A stretch of DNA of 64,000 nucleotides from the NCBI RefSeq assembly GCF_024498175.1, contig NZ_CP101823.1:1364001-1428000 (forward strand), given 5' to 3'. The notes under the pieces are model-generated. The model was not told the DNA's origin and searched no databases. It was given only the letters and a program-made list of their open reading frames with translations. Source of the stretch: Haloplanus salinarum (lineage in GTDB: Archaea > Halobacteriota > Halobacteria > Halobacteriales > Haloferacaceae). A program made the translations under genes and the position numbers. Of this stretch, positions 29,018-51,104 are shown piece after piece (position 1 is the first letter of the stretch; each line of letters begins with the position of its first letter).

Positions 29018-29788
29018 TCAGGCGAATTTGATCTGCAATTCGAATTCGTTGACGATCTTAAGCATCTGTTCGGGGAGTTCGTCATTCATCGGTTCTCCCT
29101 GGAGGTGTTGCATTGGGGCACCGGTCGCGAGCGCTCCGACGACCGTCCCGTCCTGTCTCGTGACTGGTGCCGCGATCCCTCCGTACCCGGGGACGTGCTC
29201 CTCCCTGTTGTAAGCGTACCCCCGCTCGCGCACGCGATCGAGCGCGGCGGCCAGTTCGTCCCTGTCGGTGATGGTGTTCTCCGTGATCGCGGGCATTCCC
29301 CAGCGGTCAATAATCTCGTCGACCCGTTCCTGGTCGAGATGGGCGAGGATCGACTTCCCGGCGGCATTGGCGTGTAGATAGATACGTTTGCCCGGCCGCG
29401 TGTCGATGACGCTGTCCCGTCTTTGCGGGTACTGGTAGACGTGGTAGCCTCGACCGTTCTCCTCGACGATGAACCACATCGGCTCGCCGGTCTTTTCGTA
29501 CGCTTTTTCGACGATCGCCGCGGAGATGCGGTTGGCCTTCTTCCTGCGTCGGGCGTAACTGGCCACGTGGAGGAACTCGAGGCCGACGTAGTACTGTTTG
29601 CCCTCCTTGACGACGTACCCGTCCGTGGTGAGCGTGTTCAGGTGCTGGTGAACGGTACTGTTCGCCAGCCCGAGTTCGTCGGCGATCTCGTGGAGGCGAC
29701 TCCCGTCGGCTTCGTAGAGATGCTCTACGATTTCGAGAGTCGTGGCCGTCGCCTTCACCCCGCGGGCCGCGATGTCATCCGTTGTCAT
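29018..29788 (-). CDS. IclR family transcriptional regulator
   Basis: A 256-residue regulator. The winged helix (about residues 10-75) includes RLHEIADELGLANSTVHQHL and LTTDGYVVKEGKQYYVG. The effector domain has LHANAAGKSILAHL, ENTITDRDELAAAL and RGYAYNREEHVPGYGGIAAPV. A TATA-like AAGTATATG about 30 bp before the ATG suggests a leaderless message. It is divergent from the SAF-domain dehydrogenase and ABC transporter genes and so is the likely local regulator of sugar uptake. It differs clearly from the IclR protein at 2807. Confidence 0.9.
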   Translation of the reverse strand: MTTDDIAARGVKATATTLEIVEHLYEADGSRLHEIADELGLANSTVHQHLNTLTTDGYVVKEGKQYYVGLEFLHVASYARRRKKANRISAAIVEKAYEKTGEPMWFIVEENGRGYHVYQYPQRRDSVIDTRPGKRIYLHANAAGKSILAHLDQERVDEIIDRWGMPAITENTITDRDELAAALDRVRERGYAYNREEHVPGYGGIAAPVTRQDGTVVGALATGAPMQHLQGEPMNDELPEQMLKIVNEFELQIKFA

Positions 29789-30372: not shown

Positions 30373-31722
30373 ATGCTAAATATCCCATCAAAGTTAGCTG
30401 CACGCGAGGAACCAGTACAGGTCGGCGTCATCGGTTCCGGGCTGTTCGGAACGAACCTGATCGACCAGATCGAACCGGTCACTGGACTCGAGACCGCGGT
30501 CGTAGCCGATATCGATACCGACAAGGCGGTCCGAACGCTCCGAGAGACCGGCGTTCCGTCGGACGAGATCACCGTCGCGGAGAGTGCTACGGAAGCCGAG
30601 GCGGTACGGGCAGAGGGGGGCCGTGCCGTAGTCGAGGCCGGGATGGACCTGATCGAGACGGGTGTGGACGTCGTAGTCGAGGCGACAGGGATCCCCAACA
30701 TCGGGGCGAAATATGCGTACGAAGCGATCACGGAGAAAAAGCACGTCGTCATGGTGAACGTCGAGGCCGACACGGTCGTCGGTCCGATCCTCTCGTCGTA
30801 CGCCGACCAGAACGACGTGACGTACACGATGGCCTACGGCGACCAGCCGGCCTGCATCGTCGAGTTGTGTGACTGGGCGCGCACGGTCGGGATGGAGATC
30901 GTCGCCGTCGGGAAGGGTAATCCCTATCGGGACGAATACCGATTCGGGACGCCCGACGACGTGTTCGACCGGATCGGGTTCGAGGACGAGTTCGTCGAGG
31001 GCCACAACCTCAACCCCCGGATGTTCAACTCGTTTTTCGACGGCACCAAGGTCTCCGTCGAGATGTGCGCCGTCGCGAACGCGGTCGGACTGGAACCGGA
31101 CGTTCCCGGGATGCATATTCCGACTGCAGAGATTCCCGAGATTCCGGAGAAGCTCCGGCCGGAAGCGGAGGGAGGGCTGCTCCAGAACACCGGTGTCGTC
31201 GACACGATCAGCACGGTGTACGAGGACGGCTCCACGGTCGAGCAAGACATCAGTGCGGGAGTGTTCGCCGTGACATCGACCCCGACGGAACGCGTCCAGG
31301 AGTACTTGGCCCAGTACAGTGGCGCGGGATGGCACACCGCGAGCGACGGGAAGTACCAAGTGTTCTACCGGCCTCACCACCTCCCTGGTCTGGAGACGGG
31401 CGTCAGCGTCGCCAACGCCGCGCTGAACAACGAACCGACCGGCGCCACACGGAGCCAGCACACGGAGGTCGTCGGAGTGACCAAGCAGGCTCTCAGCTCC
31501 GGAACGGAACTCGACGGCGGCGGCGGGTACACCGTCTACGGTCGGATCGAAACGGCAGAGAGGGCCGAGGCGAACGGTCACGTCCCCTTCGAACTGCTTG
31601 ACGGTGCGGTCGTCGAAACCTCCCTCGACAGGAACCAGGTCGTCACGTACGACGACGTGAGCCTCGAGGAGGATACGTTCATCTACAACCTCCGACAGCT
31701 CCAAGACGAGACCGGATTATGA
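30373..31722 (+). CDS. NAD(P)-dependent dehydrogenase with C-terminal SAF domain (COG4091-like)
   Basis: A 449-residue protein. The Rossmann start is VGVIGSGLFGTNLIDQI, followed by VVVEATGIPNIGAKYAYEAI and HVVMVNVEADTVVG. The middle resembles homoserine-dehydrogenase-like oxidoreductases, and the end (EANGHVPFELLDGAVV, DRNQVVTYDDVSL) is a SAF domain. The family is annotated as predicted homoserine dehydrogenase but occurs with sugar and sugar-acid genes. Placement just before a carbohydrate ABC transporter suggests oxidation of the imported substrate or an early intermediate; the substrate is unknown. Confidence 0.8.
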   Translation: MLNIPSKLAAREEPVQVGVIGSGLFGTNLIDQIEPVTGLETAVVADIDTDKAVRTLRETGVPSDEITVAESATEAEAVRAEGGRAVVEAGMDLIETGVDVVVEATGIPNIGAKYAYEAITEKKHVVMVNVEADTVVGPILSSYADQNDVTYTMAYGDQPACIVELCDWARTVGMEIVAVGKGNPYRDEYRFGTPDDVFDRIGFEDEFVEGHNLNPRMFNSFFDGTKVSVEMCAVANAVGLEPDVPGMHIPTAEIPEIPEKLRPEAEGGLLQNTGVVDTISTVYEDGSTVEQDISAGVFAVTSTPTERVQEYLAQYSGAGWHTASDGKYQVFYRPHHLPGLETGVSVANAALNNEPTGATRSQHTEVVGVTKQALSSGTELDGGGGYTVYGRIETAERAEANGHVPFELLDGAVVETSLDRNQVVTYDDVSLEEDTFIYNLRQLQDETGL

Positions 31723-31951: not shown

Positions 31952-33475
31952 ATGACAGAGAACAACTCACACGAAGAGCGGAGTCCAGCGGACGAACCGG
32001 ACGAGCCAGAACGGCGGAGTTTCCTGAAAGGAGTCGCGGCGGCAACCGTCTCGGGGTCGACACTCATGGCCGGTTGCAGCGGCGGCGGCGGTGACGGTGG
32101 TGGCGACAGCGGTGACGGTGGCGGTGGTGGGAGCGATGGCGGAGACGGAGGAGCCGAGTCGACGCCGACGCAAAGCGAGAACACGGTCACCGAAGGATCG
32201 GTCCACTACCTGTCGCTAGAACAGAGCCCGACGTTCAAGGAATACTGGCAGAAGACGGCCGAGATGTTCGAGGAGGAGACCGGCACGTCGGTCAGCGTCA
32301 CGTACGCGTTCGACGTCGGGTACAACAAGCGCATAGCGGAGCTGATTCAGGCCGGCGACCCGCCGGACGTAATAAACCTGGAGGACTTCAACGTCGCTCA
32401 GTACGTCCTCGACGACCTGCTCGCGCCAGTCACCGATATCACCAACCAGTTCCAAGAGCAGTTCCCGTTCCCGGACCAGTTCCGACTCACGAGCGGCGGC
32501 GAGGACATCTGGCACCCTTCGTTCGTCTCGTCGGGACTCTACTGGTACCGCGGCGACCTGATGCAACAGGAAGGATTCGAGGGAAGCGGACCGGAAATCG
32601 AGATTTCCGACGGTGAGACCGTCAGACCGCCCGCCAGTTACGACGAGTACCTGGAGTTCCTCGAAGCGACTGACCAAGTCGAGGACTCGTACGGGAACGA
32701 ACTCCGTGGCGGGTACGTCCCGGCCGCCGAGACCCTTGGGTCACAGAGCAACATCTACTGTGACGTTCTGGAGCGTGGCGTCGAACTCACCGAGCGATCC
32801 GGCGACAACATCAGTCTCAACCTCGAACCTCGCTCGAACCTCGAGTCGTACCTGGACGACCTCGAGGACGCGTATCAGTACGCGCCCTCGACCGGCAACT
32901 GGAGTTGGACGGAGATGATCAACGGGTTCGCCAACGCGGACGTCGCCTCGGCCTTCTACCTGGGTGCGCGCCACAAGACCCAGTCGGTCACGCGTGAAGG
33001 CGAGTACGGTCTGGACGTCGTCCCCGGCGAGGTCCCGCCCGTCCAAGATGAGGAGGAGCGCGGGTTCACGTTCCCCTCCGGATGGGGGGTCATGAAGGGC
33101 GGCGAGAAAACCGAACTGGGCAAGGAGTACGTGTCGATGATGATGACGGACGAGGACTTACACGTCGAGTTCCTCCAGAAGTCGCCGGTCCACAACGCCC
33201 CACTGCCCGAGTCGATGCGACAGACCGACCACCCGCTGTGGGACGTCGATATCGTCAACGATGGGTATACCGACGACCAGTTGCAGGTGTATCTCGACCA
33301 GATTCCAACCGGCAAGCCTATCGCGAGCGAGACGGACCCGACGAACTTCATCGCCGGGAACGTGTACATGACCTTCGGGCTGGGGAACATGGCCTTCCAG
33401 TACCTGGAGAACGGCGCCTCGAAGAGCGACGCCATCCAGTCGGGGATCAGCGTCATGCAGGAAGGACTGGACTAA
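31952..33475 (+). CDS. Carbohydrate ABC transporter, substrate-binding lipoprotein
   Basis: A 507-residue extracellular protein. The N-terminus has a twin-arginine motif RRSFLKGVAAATVSG and a lipobox LMAGC, then a Gly/Asp-rich linker, as usual for haloarchaeal Tat lipoproteins. The rest follows the type 1 sugar-binding fold: PTFKEYWQKTAEMFEEETG, AELIQAGDPPDVINLED, LYWYRGDLMQQEGFEG and a late FTFPSGWGVMKGGEK. The substrate cannot be read from the sequence. It leads an operon with two permeases and an ATPase. Confidence 0.9.
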   Translation: MTENNSHEERSPADEPDEPERRSFLKGVAAATVSGSTLMAGCSGGGGDGGGDSGDGGGGGSDGGDGGAESTPTQSENTVTEGSVHYLSLEQSPTFKEYWQKTAEMFEEETGTSVSVTYAFDVGYNKRIAELIQAGDPPDVINLEDFNVAQYVLDDLLAPVTDITNQFQEQFPFPDQFRLTSGGEDIWHPSFVSSGLYWYRGDLMQQEGFEGSGPEIEISDGETVRPPASYDEYLEFLEATDQVEDSYGNELRGGYVPAAETLGSQSNIYCDVLERGVELTERSGDNISLNLEPRSNLESYLDDLEDAYQYAPSTGNWSWTEMINGFANADVASAFYLGARHKTQSVTREGEYGLDVVPGEVPPVQDEEERGFTFPSGWGVMKGGEKTELGKEYVSMMMTDEDLHVEFLQKSPVHNAPLPESMRQTDHPLWDVDIVNDGYTDDQLQVYLDQIPTGKPIASETDPTNFIAGNVYMTFGLGNMAFQYLENGASKSDAIQSGISVMQEGLD

Positions 33476-33554
33476 CGCCAACAGGCGGTACATTTATGAT
33501 AGATCCGTATTTTCGATGAATTATGTTCGGCAAGATACACGAGGTGAGGCCCGT

Positions 33555-34511
33555 ATGAGCACTGTCAGAGACGCTCTCTGGAGTGGAGTCGACCAGACCC
33601 GTGAACGGTCGGAGAGCGTCCTCTCGCGTCTGTTCGAAGGCGATCGAATGCTGGTGGTCCTGACCGTCGGTCCCGCGGTGGCGCTGATGACCATCTCGGC
33701 CGCTATCCCGGTCGTCTGGGCGCTGTACCTGAGCATGCACGAGGCGGGGGCGCTCGACCCGAACTGGACGTGGATCGGCTTCGGGAACTATCTGAGCCTC
33801 TTCGGCAGCAGCATGTACTGGGAGGCCTTCCGTGCGAGTTTCGTGTTCGGGTTCGGCTCCGTCGGACTCCAGCTCGTCGTCGGCTTGGTGACGGCACTGC
33901 TCCTGACCCGGAAGTTCAGGGGCGTCATCCTGACCCGCGCACTGGTCTTTCTCCCCTACCTCATCCCGACGGTCGTCGTCGGGATGATATTCAGGCTGAT
34001 GATGAACGAACAGTTCGGGATCATCAACATCGTTGCGACGGACGTCGGGATCATAGACGAAGGGATCGCCTTCCTCGGTGAACCCTCGCTCGCTATGCCG
34101 TCGTTGATAGTGCTCAACAGCTGGAAGTTCTCCATCTTCATCACGATGATGGTACTCGCTCGGCTGCAGTCGATTCCGGACAGTTTCTACGAAGCCGCGA
34201 CGATGAACGGGGCCGGACCCCTCCGAAAGTTCAGGGACATCACCTATCCCCAGATCAGGGGCGTGTTGTTGCTCGTCGTCCTGCTCCGGGGCGTGTGGAT
34301 GTTCAACAAGTTCGACATCATCTGGATCGTGACCGGGGGTGGGCCGGGGCGGACGACTGAGACCCTCCCGGTCCGGATCTACCGGGTCGCGTTCATCAAC
34401 TTCGACCTCGGGATGGCAGGGGCAATCTCCGGCACGCTGTTCGCGTTCCTGGGGCTTGCCGCCATCGTGTATTTCGCCGGGTTCAAACCCGCCGAGGAGG
34501 TCCAGCGATGA
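33555..34511 (+). CDS. Carbohydrate ABC transporter permease (MalF/UgpA type)
   Basis: A 318-residue permease with six membrane segments and the EAA loop EAATMNGAGPLRKFRDITYPQIR. The GAGGTGAGG sequence five bases before the ATG at 33555 is a strong ribosome site, so this start is preferred over 33516. Its stop overlaps the start of the second permease. It forms the inner-membrane channel with its neighbour. Confidence 0.92.
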   Translation: MSTVRDALWSGVDQTRERSESVLSRLFEGDRMLVVLTVGPAVALMTISAAIPVVWALYLSMHEAGALDPNWTWIGFGNYLSLFGSSMYWEAFRASFVFGFGSVGLQLVVGLVTALLLTRKFRGVILTRALVFLPYLIPTVVVGMIFRLMMNEQFGIINIVATDVGIIDEGIAFLGEPSLAMPSLIVLNSWKFSIFITMMVLARLQSIPDSFYEAATMNGAGPLRKFRDITYPQIRGVLLLVVLLRGVWMFNKFDIIWIVTGGGPGRTTETLPVRIYRVAFINFDLGMAGAISGTLFAFLGLAAIVYFAGFKPAEEVQR

Positions 34512-35407
34512 CGCTGCTCGACCGCCTGGCGACCCGGGCCTCGGGACTGCTGGGCCCGGACCGGATAGGCTACCAGGAGAAGAAACGCCTCCAGCGCGTG
34601 TCGCTGTACGTCGTGGTCGGCGTCACCATCTTTGCGTTTTTCTTCCCAATCTATTGGATGCTGGTCGCCAGTCTGCAGTCGAACGACCTCATCATCAAGA
34701 GCCCGCTGTACTGGCCCTGGGAGATCCTGTCGGCCGCCACCGTCGAGTCGTGGGTGCGGGTGTTCACCGATCGAAACTTCTCGCGGTGGTATCTCAACAG
34801 CCTGCTCGTCGCGGGCATCTCGATCGTGGTGACCGTCGCCACTGCCACGCTGGCGGGATACGGTCTGACTCGCGTCAAGTTCCGCGGACGGAAGATGTTC
34901 GCGCGGCTCATCCTGTTCAGTTACATGTTCCCGCCGATCCTGCTGGCATTCCCGCAGTTCCAGATCTGGCAGGATATCGGCCTGCTGAACACCTACTGGG
35001 GGATCGCCATCGCACACATCGCGCTGGCGCTTCCCTTCTCCATCTGGGCCATGTGGAAGTTCTTCCAGACCGTCCCAATCGCCTACGAGGAGGCCGTCTG
35101 GATGAACGGGGGGACGCGGTTCCACTCGTTCAAAGACGTCGCGTTGCCGATGGCCTGGCCCGGGATGGTCGCGGTCGCGATCTTCACCTTCGCGGTCAGC
35201 TGGAACGACTTCACGATGGCCACGATACTCCTGCCCGAGCCCCGGATGCAGACGCTCCCGCCGGCCATCCAGACGTTCCAAGAGCAGAACTTCGTGTTCT
35301 GGGGCCAGATGATGGCCGCATCAGTTTTAATATCTATCCCGCCGTTCGTGCTCGTGTACAAACTTCAAGAAAGCATTCTGGAAGGATTCAAAACAGGAGG
35401 ACTCTGA
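34508..35407 (+). CDS. Carbohydrate ABC transporter permease (MalG/UgpE type)
   Basis: A 299-residue permease. The N-terminal cytoplasmic segment leads to VSLYVVVGVTIFAFFFPIYW, and the EAA loop is EEAVWMNGGTRFHSFKDVALP. The start overlaps the preceding stop by 4 bp (ATGA), and the ATPase gene follows after one base, so the three are translationally linked. Confidence 0.93.
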   Translation: MTLLDRLATRASGLLGPDRIGYQEKKRLQRVSLYVVVGVTIFAFFFPIYWMLVASLQSNDLIIKSPLYWPWEILSAATVESWVRVFTDRNFSRWYLNSLLVAGISIVVTVATATLAGYGLTRVKFRGRKMFARLILFSYMFPPILLAFPQFQIWQDIGLLNTYWGIAIAHIALALPFSIWAMWKFFQTVPIAYEEAVWMNGGTRFHSFKDVALPMAWPGMVAVAIFTFAVSWNDFTMATILLPEPRMQTLPPAIQTFQEQNFVFWGQMMAASVLISIPPFVLVYKLQESILEGFKTGGL

Positions 35408-35408
35408 T

Positions 35409-36578
35409 ATGGCAACCACACCGCGAGACCACATCTCGCTCCGAAATCTCCGCAAAGAGTTCGACGTAATGTCCGGCGTCGAGGTCGCCGTCGACGACAT
35501 CGACCTCGACATCGAAGAAGGGGAGTTCGTCACGCTTGTCGGCCCCAGCGGTTGCGGGAAGACGACGACGCTCCGGTGTATCGCCGGACTGGAGACGGCG
35601 ACCAGCGGCACCGTCAGTATCGAAGGGTCCGACGCGACGAACACGGCCCCCCAGGGTCGGGATCTGGCGATGGTGTTCCAGCGGGTCGCTCTCTACCCAC
35701 ACATGACCGTCAGGGAGAACATCGCGTACCCGCTCAAACTCGAAGGGATCGGGGCGTCCGAGCGGTACGAACAGGTGAGAGAGGCGGCCGAACTCGTCCA
35801 AGTGGCGGACATGCTCGACAAGTACCCCGGCGACATCTCCGGTGGTCAGCAACAGCGCGTCTCGATCGCCCGCGCGATCGTCCGAGACCCGGTCGCGTTC
35901 CTGATGGACGAGCCGATGAGCGACCTCGACGAGAAACTCAAACGGGAGATGCGCAAGGAACTCGGCCGCCTCCACAAGGAGCTCGGTGAGACGATTATCT
36001 ACGTGACACACGATCAGCGGGAGGCGATGACGATGTCGGACAAGATCGCGGTGATGAACGACGGGCACATCGAGCAGGTCGGCGCGCCCGAGGAGGTGTA
36101 CCGCAACCCCAACAACCTGTTCGTCGCCGGGTTCATTGGCTCGCCCGAGATCAACACACTCGATGGCTCGCTCGAGACGATCGACGACGATCGGGCCGTC
36201 GTGCGGACCGATGACGGGACACGGATCGAGTTCGAGGTCGAGGATTACGATCCGGAACGGGCGTCGGAGGACCTCGTTATCGGCTGTCGACCCCAGCACG
36301 TGACCATCGGCGAATCGAGCGAGGGGATCCCGGCGGACGTGTACCTGGTCGAACCGTTCGGCGACGACATCCACCTCTACATGAACGGGCCACAGGGAGA
36401 GATCCGGAGCGTCATGCCTGCCATGGAGGCGCCGTCCGAAGGCGACGAGATCAGCGTCCAGTTCCCGGAGTCGGCTCTCTACCTGTTCAACGCCGAGACC
36501 GGGGACCGGTTCGCGCGGGGCCGGCGGGAGAGTTCGGGTCTCTCGTGTATCGAACCGGCGTCCACTCCGATGGACTAA
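35409..36578 (+). CDS. Carbohydrate ABC transporter ATP-binding protein (MalK/UgpC type)
   Basis: A 389-residue ATPase. Walker A is GPSGCGKTTT, the signature is SGGQQQRVSIARAIV, Walker B is VAFLMDEPMSDLDEKL, and the H-loop is YVTHDQREAM. A C-terminal TOBE-like regulatory region (about 285-370) includes GCRPQHVTIGE. The Q-loop reads MVFQRVALYPHMTV. Both permeases lie directly upstream. It energises uptake through the two-permease channel. Confidence 0.94.
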   Translation: MATTPRDHISLRNLRKEFDVMSGVEVAVDDIDLDIEEGEFVTLVGPSGCGKTTTLRCIAGLETATSGTVSIEGSDATNTAPQGRDLAMVFQRVALYPHMTVRENIAYPLKLEGIGASERYEQVREAAELVQVADMLDKYPGDISGGQQQRVSIARAIVRDPVAFLMDEPMSDLDEKLKREMRKELGRLHKELGETIIYVTHDQREAMTMSDKIAVMNDGHIEQVGAPEEVYRNPNNLFVAGFIGSPEINTLDGSLETIDDDRAVVRTDDGTRIEFEVEDYDPERASEDLVIGCRPQHVTIGESSEGIPADVYLVEPFGDDIHLYMNGPQGEIRSVMPAMEAPSEGDEISVQFPESALYLFNAETGDRFARGRRESSGLSCIEPASTPMD

Positions 36579-39381: not shown

Positions 39382-39804
39382 ATGATCGGGGAGTTACACC
39401 ACTACGGTGTTACTGTATCGGATATGGAGGAATCGCTCGACTTCTACCGGGACTCGCTCGGGTTGGCGGTGAGCGAGCGCCTCTCATTCGCGAGCGAGGA
39501 GTTCAGTACGTTCGTCGGCGTCGAGGGTGTCGACGTGGACATCGCGTTCCTCGACGCGGGCGGGGGGGCGGTCGAGTTGCTGGAGTACGCGGCCCCGCCA
39601 GGTGGCGACGCCAACGAGGGCGTCGAAAACAACGACGTCGGTGCGGCTCACGTCTGTCTTGAGGTCCCCGACATCGAGGCGGTACACGACGACCTGAACG
39701 GGACCGTCGAGTTCCTCAGCCCGCCACAGCGGCTCTCGAACGGAGCGAAGGTCGCCTACGTGTTCGACCCGGACGGCAACGTCGTGGAACTCCTCGAAGC
39801 GTAG
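39382..39804 (+). CDS. VOC family (glyoxalase-like) protein
   Basis: A 140-residue protein with two beta-alpha-beta-beta-beta modules: ELHHYGVTVSDMEESLDFYRD at the start (first metal histidine), then GAVELLEYAAPPGG, GAAHVCLEVPDIEAVHDDL and VAYVFDPDGNVVELLEA at the end. Members act as isomerases, dioxygenases, lyases or epimerases; methylmalonyl-CoA epimerase and lactoylglutathione lyase have this layout. Here it precedes a hydroxyacid dehydrogenase and may share its pathway. No closer assignment is possible. Confidence 0.85.
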   Translation: MIGELHHYGVTVSDMEESLDFYRDSLGLAVSERLSFASEEFSTFVGVEGVDVDIAFLDAGGGAVELLEYAAPPGGDANEGVENNDVGAAHVCLEVPDIEAVHDDLNGTVEFLSPPQRLSNGAKVAYVFDPDGNVVELLEA

Positions 39805-39905: not shown

Positions 39906-40850
39906 ATGACAGCACAACACACAGTCGCGGTTATCGGTGCCGGTGACATGGGCCACGGGTTCGCGACGTTGTTCGCGGTGAAAGGGCAGACGGTGACGCT
40001 AATCGACCACCGAGAGTCGAACCTGGACGACGCGACCGAACGGATCCACGAGGTGGTCTCCTTTCTCCGGGCCGAGGGCGAGACCGACCGCGACCCCGAC
40101 GCCGTGGTGGAGGGAATCGAGTTCACGACGGACGTGGCGACCGGGGTCGCTGACGCCGACCTGGTCCTAGAGTCGGTTCCGGAGGACCTGTCGATCAAAC
40201 AGGACACCTACCGGGAGGTCGCCGAACACGCCCCCGACACTGCGGTCCTGGCCTCGAACACGTCGGGCATCCCGATAACGGACATCGCGGACGCGATCCC
40301 TGAACACGCCGGGCGTGTCGTGGGGTGTCACTGGTGGTACCCGCCGTACCTGCTCCCGTCGGTGGAGGTCGTCCGGGGCGAGGAGACGACCGACGAGACG
40401 GTCGATCGTGTCAAGGACTTCCTCGACGCCGTCGACAGGAAACCCGTCATGGTCGAACGCGACGTCCCGGGATTCGTCTGGAACCGCATCCAGATGGCCA
40501 TCTTCCGCGAGAGCCTCCACCTCGTCGAGGAGGGTGTCACCTCCTTCGAGGACATCGACCGCGCCATCCGAGACGGCTACGCACTCCGGACCGCAGCGAT
40601 CGGTCCCTTCGAGACCATCGACATCGCGGGGCTCGACCTCGTCCGGACGGTGCTGGATAACCTGAGCCCGCACCTCGCCGACGACGACGAGGCGAGTCAC
40701 CTGTTCGATGAGTACCTCGACGAAGGACGGGGCGGTATCCACGACGGCGCCGGGTTCTACGACTACGACCGTAGCCCCGAGGAGGTCACCCACGACCGCG
40801 ATGAAACCGTCATGGCGCTGCGACGCGCCCGCGAGCAACTGGAGGACTGA
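39906..40850 (+). CDS. 3-hydroxyacyl-CoA dehydrogenase-type NAD-dependent hydroxyacid dehydrogenase
   Basis: 314 residues. Rossmann motif VAVIGAGDMGHGFATLF, DADLVLESVPEDLSIKQ, LASNTSGIPITDIA and a C-terminal domain beginning VPGFVWNRIQMAIFRE. Where acyl-CoA enzymes have HFFNPP, this protein has GCHWWYPPYLLPSVEVV, more like sugar-acid or carnitine dehydrogenases of the same fold. Given the sugar-acid kinase and RuBisCO-like genes nearby, oxidation of a hydroxy sugar acid is more likely than a fatty acid step. The gene is followed by a strong hairpin. Confidence 0.82.
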   Translation: MTAQHTVAVIGAGDMGHGFATLFAVKGQTVTLIDHRESNLDDATERIHEVVSFLRAEGETDRDPDAVVEGIEFTTDVATGVADADLVLESVPEDLSIKQDTYREVAEHAPDTAVLASNTSGIPITDIADAIPEHAGRVVGCHWWYPPYLLPSVEVVRGEETTDETVDRVKDFLDAVDRKPVMVERDVPGFVWNRIQMAIFRESLHLVEEGVTSFEDIDRAIRDGYALRTAAIGPFETIDIAGLDLVRTVLDNLSPHLADDDEASHLFDEYLDEGRGGIHDGAGFYDYDRSPEEVTHDRDETVMALRRAREQLED

Positions 40851-40851
40851 T

Positions 40852-40916
40852 ACTGTTCATTGGAAGTCAGTACCGGTGGTTCGCCGGACTGTCCTGGCGA
40901 ACCACCGGTGAACAGT
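40852..40916. repeat. Strong inverted repeat (hairpin) after the dehydrogenase gene
   Basis: ACCGGTGGTTCGCC (40872-40885) and its exact complement (40896-40909) flank a 10-base loop, and an outer pair ACTGTTCA (40852-40859) and TGAACAGT (40909-40916) extends the structure. The outer arms resemble the TGTTCAGTACTG end of the insertion sequence at 28192. It may be a terminator, an RNA processing site or a miniature inverted-repeat element. Confidence 0.6.
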
Positions 40917-42215: not shown

Positions 42216-43388
42216 ATGCGTTGGCGTTACTCGGAGACGGTGCTGACGCTTTGTACGGCAGCCTTTTTTATCACGATGACCGGGAGACTAGCACTAAGTC
42301 CGATCATCCCGGATATCTCGGCGGACCTGGGTATCTCGAACGCCGCGATCGGTGGGGCGCTGACGGCCATGTGGGTTACCTACGCGCTCGTCCAGTTTCC
42401 CAGTGGTGTGCTTGCCGACCGGTTCGGCGAACCCGTCGTCATCCTCGTGTCGGTCGTCGGGACTGGGGCCACCGTGCTCCTGATTGGGGCTGCGCCGGTG
42501 TTTGGCGTTTTCGTCCTCGGGACGGTGTTCCTCGGGGCGGCTGCGGGCCTCCACTACAGCGTCGCGACGGGACTCATCACCCGGACCTACGACGACATCG
42601 GCACGGCGATCGGGCTGCACAACGCCGGCGGACCGGCCGCGGGGCTCGTGACCCCGCTGGCCATCACGTGGGTCGCTGGGGCCCACGGGTGGCGGGGGGC
42701 CCTCGGTCTGTTCGCGGGTCCCGCCGCGCTCGTCGGCGGGCTGTTCTGGTGGCGAGTCCGCTCGGTCCAACCGCGACGTCCCGACCAGCCGATGCGCGAG
42801 CGGTTTGCCCTCGGTCCGATCGTTTCGCTACTGTCCCGACCCACGGTCGCGTTCACCGCGATCATCGCCGCCATCTCGGATTTCACGTGGCAGGCGCTGG
42901 CATCGTTTCTCCCGACGTTTTTCGTCCAGTACCACGGCTACTCCCGAACGACGGCGAGTACGCTGTTCGCCCTGTACTTCGTCGCCCACGGGATACTACA
43001 GGTCGGTGTCGGCAGCGTCGCGGATTACTTCGGTCGCGATATCGGGACGGCACTGTGTATGGTCACCGGTATCGCCGGTCTGACAACGCTCGTGTTCGGC
43101 ACGGGAATCGAACTCGTCGTCGCCGGTCTCCTGTCGCTCGGGATGGGAATGGGATGGTCGGCAGCCGTCTTCCCGCGATTCATGGATCACCTCTCCCAGT
43201 CGGAACAGAGCTCCGGGTTCGGGGTGATTCGGACGGCCTACATGCTCGTCGCGGCGTGGGGCTCGGTCGTCGTGGGCACCCTCGCCGACCTCTTCGGCTG
43301 GGCGGTGTCGTTCGGGGCGCTAGTCGCTCTGCTCGGTGTCGCTCTCGGACTACTTGTCGGGAACCGGGCCCTCGGGCTGGGGTACTGA
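42216..43388 (+). CDS. Major facilitator superfamily transporter
   Basis: 390 residues, 12 membrane segments. Family marks are GRLALSPIIPDISADLGISN at the start of TM1-2, FPSGVLADRFGEPVVIL (loop 2-3) and GVGSVADYFGRDIGTAL in the second half. It resembles carriers of organic or sugar acids such as the NarK/hexuronate groups only in general plan. The start MRWRYSETVL at 42216 is chosen; the upstream extension is noncoding. It may import the sugar acid used by adjacent enzymes. Confidence 0.85.
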   Translation: MRWRYSETVLTLCTAAFFITMTGRLALSPIIPDISADLGISNAAIGGALTAMWVTYALVQFPSGVLADRFGEPVVILVSVVGTGATVLLIGAAPVFGVFVLGTVFLGAAAGLHYSVATGLITRTYDDIGTAIGLHNAGGPAAGLVTPLAITWVAGAHGWRGALGLFAGPAALVGGLFWWRVRSVQPRRPDQPMRERFALGPIVSLLSRPTVAFTAIIAAISDFTWQALASFLPTFFVQYHGYSRTTASTLFALYFVAHGILQVGVGSVADYFGRDIGTALCMVTGIAGLTTLVFGTGIELVVAGLLSLGMGMGWSAAVFPRFMDHLSQSEQSSGFGVIRTAYMLVAAWGSVVVGTLADLFGWAVSFGALVALLGVALGLLVGNRALGLGY

Positions 43389-43475: not shown

Positions 43476-44258
43476 TCACTTCGTCGCCGTGACTCCGCCA
43501 TCGACGGTCAGCGAGTGCCCGGTCACGTACGATGCCATGTCACTCGCCAGATACACCGCGGCGTTCGCGACATCCTCGGGTCGCCCGGCCCGGTTCAACG
43601 GGATGTTCCGGTCGACGTACTCCTCGCCCGACTCCGTTCCCACCATACCGAGGTCCGTGGCCGCCATCTCCGTCTCGGTCAAATCCGGTAGAACGGCGTT
43701 GACGCGGATGTTGGGGGCCAGTGCGTCGGCCAACGCCATCGTCATCGTCGTCACACCGCCTTTCGCCGCGCAGTACGCAACCCCGTCACCGCGCCCGCGG
43801 ACTCCGGAGGTGCTCGATATATTGATTATCGACCCGGAACGGTCGCCCCTGACCATCGACGTCGCGGCCGCCTGCGACCCGAAAAAGACCCCTTTGAGGT
43901 TGACGTCGGTCAGGTGGTCGTATTCCGCCTCGGTCGTCTCGAGAAACGGTCTGCTCTCGGTTATCCCTGCGTTGTTCACCATGACGGTGACCCCGCCGAA
44001 ATCCTCGGCGGCGCCGACGGCGTCGGAGAGGTCGTCGACGTCGGTCACGTCACAGCGGACTGACAGCGCGTCGGAGTCAGTCTCCTCGCGGATCCGGCGA
44101 TGGGTGGGCTGTCCCCCGCCACGTGGCGTGTCGGTGATGTCGGCGACGACCACGTCTGCGCCACGCCGGGCGAACTCGAGGGCGACTGCTCTGCCGTTTC
44201 CGCTCGCTCCACCGGTGACTATCGCGACCTCGTCGCTCAGAAGGCGCTCCTCCGTCAT
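43476..44258 (-). CDS. Short-chain dehydrogenase/reductase
   Basis: 260 residues with the classical SDR pattern: TGGASGNGRAVALEFARRGA (cofactor loop), NNAGI, the catalytic serine in NISSTSG, YCAAKGG (YxxxK) and a C-terminal LASDMASYVTGHSLTVDGGV. ADVVVADI after the loop favours NAD over NADP. It probably interconverts a sugar alcohol or acid hydroxyl with a ketone. It is divergent from the zinc alcohol dehydrogenase. Confidence 0.9.
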   Translation of the reverse strand: MTEERLLSDEVAIVTGGASGNGRAVALEFARRGADVVVADITDTPRGGGQPTHRRIREETDSDALSVRCDVTDVDDLSDAVGAAEDFGGVTVMVNNAGITESRPFLETTEAEYDHLTDVNLKGVFFGSQAAATSMVRGDRSGSIINISSTSGVRGRGDGVAYCAAKGGVTTMTMALADALAPNIRVNAVLPDLTETEMAATDLGMVGTESGEEYVDRNIPLNRAGRPEDVANAAVYLASDMASYVTGHSLTVDGGVTATK

Positions 44259-44360
44259 GGGATAGACAACCGGGTGTGGGCAAGTATAAGTGATGGTGGC
44301 GACGGCCAGCGACTCCGGCGCACGCTGGATTTAATTTCCGAGCGTCGATATGACTATCGT

Positions 44361-45440
44361 ATGGCGCCATCGGACGCGACCACGTCGATGGTACTGGCCG
44401 GCGAGGGACGCCTGGAACCACGGGAGTTCCCGATACCTGATGTCGGTGACGGTGCCCTCCTCAGGGTCGAAGCGACGTCCGTCTGTGGAACGGACGTCGG
44501 CCTGTACCGCGGAGAAAGCCACTTCGAATCGCTACCGCTCGTACTCGGACACGAGGTCGCGGGTCGGATCGTCGACGGAGCCGGGGAGACGTTGGACCGC
44601 TGGGGCGTCGAGATCGGTGAGCGGGTGATGCCAGAACCATACATTCCGTGTTACGAGTGTCAGCACTGTCAGACAGGAAACTACCATATGTGTGACCGGG
44701 ACCGGTGTTATGGGGTGTCGATATCCGCTGACGAACCGCCACACCTCTGGGGCGGCTACGGCGAGTACATGTACCTTCATCCGAACACCCGAGTCCACAC
44801 CCTCCCCGATGGCGTATCGTCGAGGGCGGGATGTCTCGGGTCGGTCGTCGGGAACGGCGTCCGGTGGGCGCTCACGAAAGGTCGGCTCTCACCCGGCGAC
44901 AGCGTGGCGATCGTCGGCCCCGGTGCCCAGGGGTTGGCGACAACCGTTGTTGCGGACGAGGCGGGGGCCGACCCGGTCATCCTGCTGGGACTCCCGTCGG
45001 ACGACGACCGCCTCGAACTGGGAGCAGAGCTGGGTGCCACGAACACGCTGTACAGCGACGCGGAAGACACCCCGGAGCGCACGAGGGACCTGACTGGGGG
45101 TGGTCCCGACCTGGTGGTCGTGACCGCCCCAGCGGCGCCGGCCCTGTCGCTCGCCATCGACATCGTCCGACCACGGGGTCGTGTCGTTCTCCCCGGCCTC
45201 ATCGGCGACGAGGTCCCTATCGATACCGACCGCCTCGTCGTGGACGAGATCACGCTCCTCGGCGGCCGCGGACAGGCGCTGAACGTCGAGCGAGCGATGG
45301 CGATCCTGAAACGACGCTCCGACGACATCGAATCCATCAACACGCACTCGTACCCGGTCGCGAGAGCCGAGACCGCGATCCGCGAACAGATCCCCGGGGA
45401 GGAGTTCGACCCGGATGTCGTCCACGCGGTGCTTGAGTGA
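44361..45440 (+). CDS. Zinc-dependent medium-chain alcohol/polyol dehydrogenase
   Basis: 359 residues. Catalytic zinc ligands lie in SVCGTDVGLYRGE and LGHEVAGRI; the structural zinc lobe is CYECQHCQTGNYHMC. The Rossmann domain begins VAIVGPGAQGLATTVVADEAG. Sorbitol, threonine and related sugar alcohol dehydrogenases share this plan. The ATG at 44361 lies just after the AT-rich ATTTAATTTCC promoter region. A sugar or polyol substrate is likely from context. Confidence 0.9.
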   Translation: MAPSDATTSMVLAGEGRLEPREFPIPDVGDGALLRVEATSVCGTDVGLYRGESHFESLPLVLGHEVAGRIVDGAGETLDRWGVEIGERVMPEPYIPCYECQHCQTGNYHMCDRDRCYGVSISADEPPHLWGGYGEYMYLHPNTRVHTLPDGVSSRAGCLGSVVGNGVRWALTKGRLSPGDSVAIVGPGAQGLATTVVADEAGADPVILLGLPSDDDRLELGAELGATNTLYSDAEDTPERTRDLTGGGPDLVVVTAPAAPALSLAIDIVRPRGRVVLPGLIGDEVPIDTDRLVVDEITLLGGRGQALNVERAMAILKRRSDDIESINTHSYPVARAETAIREQIPGEEFDPDVVHAVLE

Positions 45441-45548: not shown

Positions 45549-46931
45549 TCAATCGAGGGGGACACCACCGGATTTGACGACGCCGAAGTAGTCGTCCCCT
45601 CCGGTCTGACCGCCCTTGAACGCGATCTCCAGCCCGTCCGCGAAGGACCTGTCGGCGACCGCGCGACAGATCGGGGCCCCCGGAGCCGCGACCGCGATCG
45701 CTTCGAGCGCCGTGATATCGAGCGCCGAGATGACCGCGCCGCTCGTGTCACCGCCCGCCACACAGGCACGTTCCAGACCGACTTTCCGGAGGATCTCCCT
45801 GACGATGAGCCCCTGCTGGTGACCGAGACGGTCGCCGAGGGCGCCCGGGGGGCCGAGTTCTTCGAACCGACGACGGGTTCGCTCGATCGCCGGGTCGTCC
45901 GGCCCCTTCGCCGTATAGAGGACGACGTCGGTCCCCGATTCCAGGACTGAGACCGTATCGTGGACGACAGCCCGCCGTTCGGCGTCCCGTTCGGCCGGGT
46001 CGATCAGCCGGGGCGTATCGAGCCGTATCGTCTCGAATCCCTCCGCCGCTGCGCGCTCCACCTGGGACGCGGTGGTCGGTGCTACGCTCCCCGACACGAC
46101 GAGGATCGGATCAGCTGGGGGTCGATGTTTCAAACATTCGTCGTCCGTGTCAATCTCGCCGGTTCTCTCCCAGTGTGCCGGCAGCGCGTGGTGTTCCAGG
46201 CCGGAGGAGCCCACACAGAATAGGACGCCCTGTCGTTCGGTTGCCGCCGACCAGAGTACGCTGCCGATCGTTTCCAAGTGGCCCGTATCGAGGGCGTCGA
46301 AGACGACTATCTCGTCCCCCTGGCTGACGGTTCGCTCGAGCGACGAGGCGACATCCTCGTGGCTATCGACGTACCGGATGTCGACGAGGCCGACGGGACG
46401 CGAGGTCTGTTCGCCGAGGTGGCGGCGGATGTCGCTCTCGTGCATCGGGGTCCGCGGGTGCGCACGCATCGTCGGATGTCGGTCGAGGCGGTAGGGCTTC
46501 CCGCCCTGTTCAGCGAAGAGGTTCCCGAAGACGACGTACCGGCCATGTGGCGAAGTCGTCCCCTGTGAGACGGGCACGAACGGGGAGTCGTACACCGACT
46601 GACCGATATCGATCGCCTTCCCGATGCTTCCCACCTCCGGCGAGGAGTCGAACGTAGAACAGACCTTGTAATGGACCAGCGGGGGGTCGAGGTCGCCCAG
46701 CGCTTGGAACACCGACGGAAGTTCGTCTTCCATCTCGGCCGGTGACATCGCTCGACTCGTTCCGGCGACTCCGACGGCTCTCACGTCGTCGAACCGCTCC
46801 AGATCAGCCGGCGACGGCGGGGTAACGAACAGGACGCTCGGAATGCCGTTCCGCGCCAATCCCTCCAACGCGTCCGTCGATCCGGTGATATCGTCCCCGT
46901 AGAACGCCAGGAGCAGGTCCGGCTCAGCCAT
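45549..46931 (-). CDS. Four-carbon acid sugar kinase family protein (DUF1537)
   Basis: 460 residues in two domains. N-terminal: LLAFYGDDITGSTDALEGLA and VAGTSRAMSPAE with VHYKVCSTFDSSPEVGSIGKA. C-terminal nucleotide-binding: CVAGGDTSGAVISALDI and FKGGQTGGDDYFGVV. Characterised members phosphorylate D- or L-threonate, 3-oxo-tetronates or 3-oxo-isoapionate. The start is inside the RuBisCO-like gene (8-bp overlap), so the two proteins are made together. A kinase followed by a RuBisCO-like decarboxylase is the arrangement of the 3-oxo-isoapionate branch of apiose catabolism (OiaK and OiaX). Confidence 0.9.
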   Translation of the reverse strand: MAEPDLLLAFYGDDITGSTDALEGLARNGIPSVLFVTPPSPADLERFDDVRAVGVAGTSRAMSPAEMEDELPSVFQALGDLDPPLVHYKVCSTFDSSPEVGSIGKAIDIGQSVYDSPFVPVSQGTTSPHGRYVVFGNLFAEQGGKPYRLDRHPTMRAHPRTPMHESDIRRHLGEQTSRPVGLVDIRYVDSHEDVASSLERTVSQGDEIVVFDALDTGHLETIGSVLWSAATERQGVLFCVGSSGLEHHALPAHWERTGEIDTDDECLKHRPPADPILVVSGSVAPTTASQVERAAAEGFETIRLDTPRLIDPAERDAERRAVVHDTVSVLESGTDVVLYTAKGPDDPAIERTRRRFEELGPPGALGDRLGHQQGLIVREILRKVGLERACVAGGDTSGAVISALDITALEAIAVAAPGAPICRAVADRSFADGLEIAFKGGQTGGDDYFGVVKSGGVPLD

Positions 46932-48198
46932 CGGACCCTCCGTAGTGGTCGAGGGCGACGCGGAGTTCCTCGTGGTCCGCCGCGTATTCTTCGAGCGAGA
47001 CGCCCGCTATCGCGGCGTCCCATCCCTGTCTGAGATGAGCGACGCCGGCCGCCGGGCCGTCGGGGTGACCCAGTATGCCACCCCCGGCGAGATGCAACAG
47101 GTCGGTGTTTCCGAGCGCCCGATACGTCTCCGGTGCTTGGCCGGCCCACTGACCCGAAGAGAACACCGGCATCGCGATATCGTCCTCGCTAGCGATCGGG
47201 GACTGCACTGCCCGTGCGTTTTCGACGACTGACTCGTCGGATTCGGCGAACTTGTTCCGGATGCCGTTGACGTGGATGTGATCGGCCCCGGCGAGTCTGA
47301 AGAACTTGTGATAGGCACGATAGTCGAATCCGAGTTGCGGGCACCGAGAGAGGGCACCCCAGCCGTTCCGGTGGGCGTGGATCGGTAGGTCGACCTCCCG
47401 TCGTAGTTTCGTCAACCCCGAGAGACCGACGCTGTTCATGCTCACCATGAGACAGTTTCCGCCCGCTTCGGCTACGGTATCGGCCCGTTCCAGCATCTCA
47501 TCCACGTCGCCGGTGATATTGCAGGCGTACATCACCTCCTTCCCGGTCGTCGCCTCGTGCTCGTCGATGGCAGCCATAACCGCCGTGACCCTGTCGGCGA
47601 CTCGCGAGTACGGCGGGTCGCTGATCAACTCGTCGTCTTTGACGAAATCGATACCCGCATCGACGAGTTCCCGAACCAAGTCACCCGTTTCCTCGGGAGA
47701 CAGCCCGACACTGGGTTTCACGATCGTCCCGATGAGCGGCCGATCCCAGACGTCGACGACACGCCGCGTGCCCTCGACCCCAAACTGTGGACCGGGGTAC
47801 GCCGCCGCCAGGGGAGCAGGAACGTCGAGGTCGACCAACCGGATCCCCGAAAAATGGCGCAGTTCGAAAAGGTTCCCGCCGACGGCTGTCAGAAGGTTCT
47901 GGATGGAATGCCCGACGTTTTCGAGCGGGATAGAGACCGCTACTTCCGCTCGCGTGTACGTCCCCTTCTCGCCGCGGGGACTCGGCGTCACCGCGCCTGG
48001 GAGCGTCGCCCGGTCCGACTCCCCGAGTACGGTGACGTCCTCGACGGCCGCCGCGTGTCGCCTTCGGAGGGCTTCGGTTTCCAGCGGTACGTCCGTGAAC
48101 GTCCCCGTCGACTGTTCACTAACCATCGCTTCCGTCGCCTCGTCGAGAGAAACCGGAGTCTCGATTCTGTATCTCGCTACGATCCGGTCGGTCGGCAC
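46924..48198 (-). CDS. RuBisCO-like protein, probable sugar-acid-phosphate decarboxylase
   Basis: 424 residues of the RuBisCO large-chain fold. PLIGTIVKPSVGLSPEET matches the Lys-175 region but has S where true RuBisCO has its second lysine (K161 kept). KDDELISDPPYSR keeps the carbamylated lysine and acidic metal ligands (K187, D189, E190). LPIHAHRNGWGALSR keeps the active-site histidine. The altered residues rule out ordinary carbon fixation. Overlap with the sugar-acid kinase gene suggests action on the kinase product, as in OiaX or OiaT of the apionate pathways. Which of the two is not decided. Confidence 0.85.
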   Translation of the reverse strand: MPTDRIVARYRIETPVSLDEATEAMVSEQSTGTFTDVPLETEALRRRHAAAVEDVTVLGESDRATLPGAVTPSPRGEKGTYTRAEVAVSIPLENVGHSIQNLLTAVGGNLFELRHFSGIRLVDLDVPAPLAAAYPGPQFGVEGTRRVVDVWDRPLIGTIVKPSVGLSPEETGDLVRELVDAGIDFVKDDELISDPPYSRVADRVTAVMAAIDEHEATTGKEVMYACNITGDVDEMLERADTVAEAGGNCLMVSMNSVGLSGLTKLRREVDLPIHAHRNGWGALSRCPQLGFDYRAYHKFFRLAGADHIHVNGIRNKFAESDESVVENARAVQSPIASEDDIAMPVFSSGQWAGQAPETYRALGNTDLLHLAGGGILGHPDGPAAGVAHLRQGWDAAIAGVSLEEYAADHEELRVALDHYGGSDG

Positions 48199-48704: not shown

Positions 48705-49571
48705 TCAGACTCTCGTGACCGTGTTCGAGAGGCGCCCGATTCCCTCGATGTCGATGTCGATCCGGTCACCGGGCTCGAGAGTGAAGCCTTCCTCCGGTAC
48801 CAGCGACGTCCCCGTCAACAACACTGCGGTCTCTGGGACGGTATTGTGCCTGGTGAGGAAGGAGACGAGTTCCTCGCAGGAGCGGACCATCTCGCTGGTG
48901 GCGGTTTCGCCCTCGTAACGCTGCTCGCCGTCCCGCTCGATCGTCATCCGCATCGCGAGGTCGTGGGGATCGTCCACGGACTCGGCGCTGACGACGCAGG
49001 GACCGAGCGAACAGGACCTGTCGTAGACCTTCGCTTGAGGGAGGTAGAGCGGGTTCGCGCCCTCTATCGACCGGCTGCTCACGTCGTTTCCGATGGTGTA
49101 GCCGGTGATGTCGCCATGGTGGAGGACGATCCCGAGTTCGGGTTCGGGGACGTTCCACTCCGAGTCCTCACGGACCCCGACCGCCTCACCGGGGCCGACG
49201 ACGCGGTCCCGCGTCGCCTTGAAGAACAGCTCCGGTCGGTCAGCATCGTAGACGTCTAGGTACATCTCCGGCATCCCGCTCTCCGCCTCGCGGGCCTTTT
49301 CGCTTATTTCGTACGTGACGCCAGCGGCCCACACCTCGTCGACGGCCACCGGAACGGCCGCGTTCGTCTCGTCCGGGATGTCGACCGGCTCCGCCTCGTC
49401 GACGAGGCGAGCGGCGACCTCGTCGACGGTTTCGGTGGCGATATCGGCGACGTGTGCGAGGTCGTCGAAGGAGGTCACACGCTCGCGGGCCGCAGTCAGG
49501 TCGTACGCTTCGTCCCCGTCACGAGCGATGAGCCGCGGCTCGCCGCCCTCGCTGACACAGTAGTACTGCAT
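48705..49571 (-). CDS. Fumarylacetoacetate hydrolase family protein, possible 2-keto-3-deoxy-sugar-acid dehydratase
   Basis: 288 residues. The C-terminal FAH domain carries WAAGVTYEISEKAREAESG, the metal glutamates in VPEPELGIVLHHGDITGYTIGND (read as PEPELGIVL and GYTIGNDVSSR) and LTGTSLVPEEGFTLEPGD. In haloarchaea and Sulfolobus, relatives dehydrate 2-keto-3-deoxy-pentonates to 2-oxoglutarate semialdehyde. The divergent aldehyde dehydrogenase next door would complete that route to 2-oxoglutarate. Other FAH activities remain possible. Confidence 0.82.
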   Translation of the reverse strand: MQYYCVSEGGEPRLIARDGDEAYDLTAARERVTSFDDLAHVADIATETVDEVAARLVDEAEPVDIPDETNAAVPVAVDEVWAAGVTYEISEKAREAESGMPEMYLDVYDADRPELFFKATRDRVVGPGEAVGVREDSEWNVPEPELGIVLHHGDITGYTIGNDVSSRSIEGANPLYLPQAKVYDRSCSLGPCVVSAESVDDPHDLAMRMTIERDGEQRYEGETATSEMVRSCEELVSFLTRHNTVPETAVLLTGTSLVPEEGFTLEPGDRIDIDIEGIGRLSNTVTRV

Positions 49572-49661: not shown

Positions 49662-51104
49662 ATGAGCGAACAATATCGAAATTACATCGACGGCGAGTGG
49701 ACCGAATCGGAGACGGGCGAGACGTTCGAGAGCCGGAATCCGGCAGACCGCAACGACTTGGTGGGGGTGTTCCAACAGTCCGGCGAAACGGACGCCGAGC
49801 GCGCGGTGGAAGCTGCGGCAGCGGCAACCGAGACGTGGGCGGACACCCCCGCTCCGGAGCGCGGCGCAGTCCTGCGGGAGGTGGCGGGGAAGCTCGACGC
49901 TCGGAAGGACGAACTGACCGAAACGCTCGTTCGTGAGGAGGGGAAGGCACGCCCCGAAGCGGCCGGGGAGGTCCAGCGCGCTATCGACATCTTCGCGTAC
50001 TACGGTGCGAAGGCCAGCGACCTGGGTGGCGACGTCAAATCGTCCAGCAGCCGGGATACGACGCTCTACACGGTCGACGAACCGATCGGTGTTGCCGGGC
50101 TCATCACGCCGTGGAACTACCCCATCGCCATCCCGGCGTGGAAGATCGCCCCGGCGCTCGCGACCGGGACCACGGTCGTGTTCAAACCGGCGTCGCTCAC
50201 CCCGAACATCGCCCGGAAACTCGTCGAGTGCTTGGACGAGGCCGGTCTCGCGGACGGTGCCCTCAACCTCGTGACCGGTCCCGGGAGCACGGTCGGGAAG
50301 ACGCTCTCGACTCATGACGCCGTCGACGCCGTCTCCTTCACCGGGAGCGCGGCCGTCGGCGAAACCGTCGGTGACCAGGCCAAAGAGACCAACAAGCGCG
50401 TGCAACTGGAGATGGGGGGGAAGAACCCCGTCGTCGTGATGGACAGCGCCGACGTCGACGACGCGGTGGATATCGCCGCTGGAGGGGCGTTCGGCGTCAC
50501 GGGACAAGCGTGTACGGCCACCTCCCGCGCCATCGTCCACGAGGACTGCTACGACGAGTTCGTGGCGGGGGTCGTCGAAGCGGCCGAGTCGATCACGATC
50601 GGCCCGGGGCTGGACGGGGCCGACATGGGTCCACAGGCCAGCCAAAGCGAACTCGAAAGCACGCTTGAATACGTCGATGTCGGGATCGACGAGGGCGCGA
50701 CCCTGGAGACGGGCGGCGAGGAGGTCGACGCCGGGGACGGCTTCTTCGTCGAGCCGACGGTCTTCTCGGGCGTCGAGCAGGACATGCGAATCGCACAGGA
50801 GGAGATCTTCGGCCCGGTGCTTTCGGTCATTCCGGTGAGTAGCTACGGCGAGGCGGTATCCGTCGCGAACGGCGTCCCGTACGGCCTCTCGGCCAGTATC
50901 GTGACCCAGGACCTCTCGGAGGCGCACAGTTTCGTCGAGGACTCCGAATCCGGCGTGGTGAAAATCAACGAGAAGACGACCGGACTCGAACTCCACGTCC
51001 CGTTCGGTGGAATGAAAGACTCCTCCAGCGAGACGTACCGGGAGCAGGGCGACGCCGGACTCGACTTCTACACCATCTCCAAGACGGTGTATCTGAACTA
51101 CTGA
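49662..51104 (+). CDS. Aldehyde dehydrogenase, possible 2-oxoglutarate semialdehyde dehydrogenase
   Basis: 480 residues of the NAD(P)-dependent ALDH family. Marks are TPWNYPIAIPAWKIAPALATG, FTGSAAVGETV, LEMGGKNPVVVM (general base Glu), GQACTATSRAIV (catalytic Cys) and EEIFGPVLSVIPV. The start at 49662 (MSEQYRNYIDGEW) matches the family; the longer upstream frame is noncoding. It is divergent from the FAH-family gene and shares the 90-bp promoter region. Oxidation of 2-oxoglutarate semialdehyde is inferred from this pairing. Confidence 0.88.
   Translation: MSEQYRNYIDGEWTESETGETFESRNPADRNDLVGVFQQSGETDAERAVEAAAAATETWADTPAPERGAVLREVAGKLDARKDELTETLVREEGKARPEAAGEVQRAIDIFAYYGAKASDLGGDVKSSSSRDTTLYTVDEPIGVAGLITPWNYPIAIPAWKIAPALATGTTVVFKPASLTPNIARKLVECLDEAGLADGALNLVTGPGSTVGKTLSTHDAVDAVSFTGSAAVGETVGDQAKETNKRVQLEMGGKNPVVVMDSADVDDAVDIAAGGAFGVTGQACTATSRAIVHEDCYDEFVAGVVEAAESITIGPGLDGADMGPQASQSELESTLEYVDVGIDEGATLETGGEEVDAGDGFFVEPTVFSGVEQDMRIAQEEIFGPVLSVIPVSSYGEAVSVANGVPYGLSASIVTQDLSEAHSFVEDSESGVVKINEKTTGLELHVPFGGMKDSSSETYREQGDAGLDFYTISKTVYLNY

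Follow-up and report, generated by a model that had tools for sequence, protein, structure and literature searches.

The 64,000-nucleotide stretch of Haloplanus salinarum DNA analysed here (the window; all coordinates refer to it) encodes a RuBisCO-like protein (RLP) side by side with a DUF1537 kinase, as does the bacterial system of the kinase OiaK with either OiaX or OiaT. This raises the question of whether a haloarchaeon degrades an apionate-like branched sugar acid, and if so with which of the reactions available to such RLPs. Two activities, decarboxylation and transcarboxylation/hydrolysis, are reported for RLPs of Agrobacterium and Xanthobacter (PMC6302742). In the limited collection of literature that we searched, we found no description of an RLP of the OiaX/OiaT group, or of apiose or apionate use, in archaea.

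The RLP, the kinase and their neighbours

Both open reading frames of the pair are intact and overlap by 8 bases, and their Pfam domains agree with the original prediction of an RLP overlapping a DUF1537 kinase (Table 1). The fold of the RLP is certain enough from close solved relatives: the nearest PDB structure, 3nwr (E 2e-118), is an RLP of the same group, although it belongs to a different subclade in our tree. The highest-scoring NCBIfam model for the RLP was OiaX (NF042437), with 494.6 bits against a cut-off of 700, whereas a bona fide OiaX reaches 777 bits. For the kinase it was OiaK (NF042436), with 456.7 bits against a cut-off of 700; this cut-off is uninformative here because the kinase neighbouring that true OiaX also falls short of it, with merely 472 bits. 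The OtnK/OtnC pathway for 3-oxo-tetronate likewise uses a kinase of this family and phosphorylates a 3-oxo acid before C–C cleavage, but its cleavage enzyme is a class II aldolase where an RLP is found here, and our kinase scored only 178.7 of 350 bits on the OtnK model. On the form III RuBisCO model, two haloarchaeal RLPs scored 283–300 bits and five bacterial members of the group 222–246 bits.

Table 1. Features of the window around the RLP–kinase pair.
Feature	Coordinates	Strand	Remarks
IclR-family regulator	29018..29788	-	divergent from DLO and ABC genes
DLO, DXR-II-like oxidoreductase	30373..31722	+	Pfam DRL_cat; Brucella DRL 3upy E=3e-66
ABC importer substrate-binding protein	31952..33475	+	upstream of permeases; relative in G233
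ABC importer permease 1	33516..34511	+	
ABC importer permease 2	34508..35407	+	
ABC importer ATPase, UgpC/MalK type	35409..36578	+	
VOC (glyoxalase/epimerase-like) protein	39382..39804	+	Pfam Glyoxalase; relative in G233
3-hydroxyacyl-CoA-dehydrogenase-family (3HCDH) enzyme	39906..40850	+	accompanies DLO in most DLO-type clusters
MFS transporter	42273..43388	+	start uncertain; relative in G278 cluster
SDR dehydrogenase	43476..44258	-	glucose 1-dehydrogenase subfamily, 260.7 bits
Zn-dependent alcohol dehydrogenase (Zn-ADH)	44358..45440	+	relatives in clusters of G278, G233, G323, Halomarina
DUF1537 acid-sugar kinase, OiaK-like	45549..46931	-	460 aa; Pfam SBD_N and NBD_C
RLP, OiaX/OiaT-type group	46924..48198	-	424 aa; Pfam RuBisCO_large (2.6e-74) and RuBisCO_large_N
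FAH-family dehydratase/hydrolase	48705..49571	-	no curated cut-off reached
2,5-dioxovalerate (alpha-ketoglutaric semialdehyde) dehydrogenase (ALDH)	49668..51104	+	NF052305, 820.7 bits (cut-off 750)

The other genes ascribed to the island beforehand are all there: the ABC importer (31952–36578), dehydrogenases of the SDR, Zn-ADH and 3HCDH types, and the FAH and ALDH genes. The last two, though present, probably belong to the last steps of the oxidative pentose pathway of haloarchaea, apart from the RLP branch, judging by the ALDH score (Table 1) and by the absence of this gene pair from other RLP clusters. The SDR is a possible upstream sugar dehydrogenase; relatives with 54–57% identity lie next to the RLP in genomes G192, G197, G106 and G278, and members of the same family (54–65%) lie next to the RLP in clusters that encode a PGDH_C protein (see below) and next to DLO in G303. 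Relatives of the 3HCDH-family enzyme (54–62%) occur in the DLO clusters of G323, G303 and Halomarina, with one more in G278, and IclR regulators recur near the RLP in haloarchaeal clusters.

Several further features of these clusters were recorded. A divergent thermosome (group II chaperonin) gene lies within the sugar-acid cluster of the window (37545–39185), and the cluster of G233, from the same genus, has a thermosome gene too. Remnants of an ISH3-type transposase at 26142–27904, where G+C falls to 0.52, may mark an edge of the island, and a long near-perfect inverted repeat between the 3HCDH-family and DUF7260 genes (40870–40911) may be either a terminator or a small mobile element. Directly upstream of the RLP, many haloarchaeal clusters encode an orphan protein of about 267 aa whose two halves resemble each other and which matches no Pfam family (loci L185:11137-11940 and L183:19103-19948; clusters of G106, G192, G197 and G278).

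Distribution, phylogeny and active site of the RLP

We surveyed 391 haloarchaeal genomes, the window's own among them. The RLP was found in 10 (63–72% identity, window's genome counted), while about 123 others carry form III RuBisCO alone (~37% identity). All 10 RLP genomes are among the 13 that have the kinase; this pairing is beyond chance (Fisher p ~1e-17 over the 391 genomes), and kinase and RLP genes lie next to each other in 9 of the 10. The kinase is also present in most bacterial RLP loci. Several of the haloarchaeal RLP copies are plasmid-borne. In the kinase tree, the window's kinase groups with other RLP-linked haloarchaeal kinases, and the close haloarchaeal groupings of the RLP tree recur with the exception of G264. 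In that genome a distance of about 8 kb separates the RLP from the sole kinase found, which is next to a class II aldolase and groups with kinases of RLP-free clusters, which counts against our preferred explanation. Loci L171 and L172 (G100 and G056), which lack an RLP of the group, combine an OiaK-like kinase with an OtnC-like class II aldolase and an Asp/Glu-racemase-family protein, an apparent swap of the cleavage enzyme. L170 (G122), also without a group RLP, has kinase, PGDH_C protein, DeoC-family aldolase, TIM-family protein and transporter in a row and reads as a further variant of the route.

In the main tree, the 11 haloarchaeal RLPs form a single clade (SH-aLRT 99) outside bacterial OiaX, with sequences from Chloroflexi, Bacteroidota and Opitutales branching nearby. 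Grouping the haloarchaeal RLPs with Chloroflexi was not rejected (AU p 0.34), a single clade with OiaX was mildly rejected (AU p 0.024) and one with Xanthobacteraceae and Microvirga was rejected (AU p 0.001). The Xanthobacteraceae RLPs, presumably OiaT by synteny and taxonomy, served in this tree as the proxy for the assayed Xanthobacter OiaT. The phylogeny called for in the original prediction thus upheld grouping with neither OiaX nor the OiaT proxy.

We then compared active-site residues in RuBisCO numbering. K175, K201, D203 and E204 are kept in the window's RLP (as K161, K187, D189 and E190) and K177 is replaced by serine (S163), exactly as had been claimed from the sequence. The 11 haloarchaeal RLPs examined share with the Xanthobacteraceae RLPs, and with nearly every other member of the group, the residues E60, T65, N123, K175, K201, D203, E204, H294, R295, H327, K334 and S379; in these proteins K177 has become S or N, H298 has become W and G380 has become S. 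By contrast, two named OiaX carry E60D, N123G, H327Q and S379G/C, four positions that are intact in 11 of 11 haloarchaeal RLPs. In RuBisCO, E60, N123, H327 and S379 act in carboxylation and hydrolysis; going by that chemistry, a pure decarboxylase could dispense with them, whereas a transcarboxylase/hydrolase should keep them. The residue set that we would expect of OiaT, drawn from our own inference of what its reaction needs (E60, N123, K175, K201, D203, E204, H327, K334 and S379), is present in full in the window's RLP. Its active site thus resembles that of the putative OiaT group and not that of a decarboxylase, which lends moderate support to an OiaT-type outcome. The contrast between OiaX and the rest also provides a simple testable rule separating decarboxylation from RuBisCO-like transcarboxylation plus hydrolysis.

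Direct membership of the RLP in OiaX was rejected on score, tree and residues. The match to the 3-oxo-isoapionate branch as originally predicted holds in that no other family model comes close to the scores of OiaX and OiaK and that bacterial homologues have ApnO-, ApsD- and ApnL-like neighbours, and fails in that the haloarchaeal RLPs are a separate clade with an active site of OiaT rather than OiaX type.

ApnO-like proteins and DLO in RLP clusters

Three further proteins (PGDH_C, a Gfo/Idh dehydrogenase and a hypothetical protein of about 620 aa) accompany the pair in Rhizobium beringeri and Paracoccus TOH, where the RLP carries an OiaX annotation; the same three companions are found beside the pair in Microvirga and Roseibium, and also where the RLP exceeds the OiaX cut-off. 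In the apiose pathway as published we take them to correspond to ApnO, ApsD and ApnL, the PGDH_C oxidoreductase being the probable D-apionate oxidoisomerase ApnO, as judged from synteny. Among 87 loci from bacteria, plasmids and contigs, the pair mostly occurs with either a PGDH_C or an Asp/Glu-racemase-family protein, and with both in few. Loci of the racemase type (L070, L083, L130 and other bacterial ones) often lie near alpha-L-rhamnosidase-like genes and possibly represent another route, one that degrades a sugar acid from pectin.

The haloarchaeal PGDH_C protein is a relative of 5t57 (E 1e-76) and occurs in 7 of the 391 genomes, 6 of which have the RLP. As in the bacterial apiose system, it is thus present in most RLP haloarchaea. 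The system here differs in its archaeal host and in the separate RLP clade; a search for the lactonase ApnL, run without a positive control, gave no match in the 10 RLP genomes. The window differs further: the ApnO-like protein was not found in its genome, which has DLO instead, the most telling companion of the pair and one that the original prediction had omitted. This protein shares its Pfam catalytic domain with DXR-II (DRL) and with the related oxidoreductases DLO1 and DLO2, and keeps Arg320. Unlike DXR-II, it sits in a sugar-acid cluster and has Val in place of Thr229, the residue that is the criterion for DXR-II, so that by this criterion it is not a DXR-II (PMC3847144).

DLO was found at ~60% identity in 6 of the 391 genomes, 4 of them with the RLP; it is present in 4 of 10 RLP genomes vs. 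2 of 381 others (p 3e-6). The 10 RLP genomes split into 6 with the PGDH_C protein and 4 with DLO, with no overlap, an exact division whose chance is 1/210 if relatedness is ignored. When we added 6 haloarchaea represented by plasmids or contigs, reading near the RLP only and again ignoring relatedness, 11 of 16 had the PGDH_C protein and 5 had DLO near the RLP, none having both and none neither. The state switched at least 3 times on the RLP tree, and hence does not reflect one inherited event. In Halalkalicoccus FCH27, the genes for RLP, kinase, PGDH_C protein and a GntP permease lie next to one another, apparently as a minimal cassette. We know of no function assigned to the DLO family.

This complementary distribution led us to propose an archaeal apionate-type pathway with DLO in place of ApnO, a replacement that the sequence data support suggestively. 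Since most DLO-type clusters also hold the 3HCDH-family enzyme, it may need two proteins. Several observations count against it: G323 and G303 have DLO at ~60% identity but neither RLP nor kinase, two bacterial loci hold the PGDH_C protein together with a distant DLO (37–38%), and in the window DLO lies 15 kb from the RLP. We looked for an operator motif common to the promoters of DLO and the RLP and found none.

A proposed route and its alternatives

Gene identities, linkage, retained residues and the complementary occurrence of the ApnO-like protein and DLO are read directly from sequence; the substrate, the type of reaction and the role of DLO we infer as follows. A branched sugar acid would be imported into the cell, where DLO, possibly with the 3HCDH-family enzyme, would oxidise it and shift the carbon branch to yield 3-oxo-isoapionate, as ApnO does in bacteria. 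Phosphorylation at C4 by the kinase would follow, and the RLP, whose predicted substrate is a branched 3-oxo sugar acid bearing a phosphate, would receive a 2-carboxy-3-keto phosphate similar to RuBisCO's own carboxylated intermediate. The retention of RuBisCO residues that are missing from OiaX leads us to favour OiaT-type transcarboxylation and hydrolysis to 3-phosphoglycerate and glycolate over plain decarboxylation. A glycolate-oxidase-type gene (FAD/Fe-S, ~1010 aa) near the RLP in G026 and G344 was considered as support for a glycolate product and set aside, as it proves nothing, being multi-copy in all 10 RLP genomes.

In our estimate it is probable, if by no means assured, that kinase and RLP carry out the lower steps in the breakdown of a D-apionate-type branched sugar acid. 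The fuller reading, in which a haloarchaeal apionate-type pathway ends in an OiaT-type RuBisCO step and DLO has repeatedly replaced bacterial ApnO, is plausible but tentative. The earlier suggestion of an archaeal apionate or branched sugar-acid pathway is well supported at the level of gene families and linkage; support for the exchange of ApnO for DLO, which we add to it, is suggestive.

It is somewhat unlikely, though a serious contender, that the pair degrades some other sugar acid (a branched acid of rhamnogalacturonan II or a tetronate) while DLO serves a separate neighbouring pathway. Many bacterial RLP–kinase pairs do occur with the Asp/Glu-racemase-family protein, without PGDH_C and near alpha-L-rhamnosidase-like genes, and the DLO genes of G323 and G303, which lack RLP and kinase, are again found by 3HCDH-family, SDR or Zn-ADH genes. 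Against such independence stand the exact complementarity of DLO and PGDH_C in the 16 RLP haloarchaea and the SDRs of one family (54–65%) that lie by the RLP in PGDH_C-type clusters and by DLO in G303.

Alternatively, the same kinase and RLP chemistry could end as in OiaX, with CO2 removed to give erythrulose phosphate, which isomerases would pass to central metabolism. We regard this as unlikely: we noted neither a TIM nor an RpiB gene next to the RLP, the joint clade with OiaX was mildly rejected, and the four RuBisCO residues lost in the two named OiaX are kept, even though OiaX is the highest-scoring named model for the RLP and G122 has, together with kinase and PGDH_C protein, the DeoC aldolase and the TIM-family protein that a route through erythrulose phosphate might require. 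Far less probable still is that the RLP is an MtnW enolase of methionine salvage or a true carbon-fixing RuBisCO, with which it has only fold and family in common. It scored 165 bits against a cut-off of 513.6 on the MtnW model (TIGR03332) and 283 against 497 on the form III model, K177 is replaced, no methionine-salvage genes were seen nearby, and the haloarchaeal form III enzymes are a separate group (~37%). Model scores and distribution led us to reject both identities, and the placement in methionine salvage that was to count against the original prediction was not seen.

If the apionate-type pathway with DLO in place of ApnO is correct, it would provide the first role for a DLO. The complementarity of PGDH_C protein and DLO amounts to a specific prediction for this orphan family, whose predicted chemistry, oxidation or reduction combined with a carbon shift, would be that of its relative DXR-II in isoprenoid synthesis.
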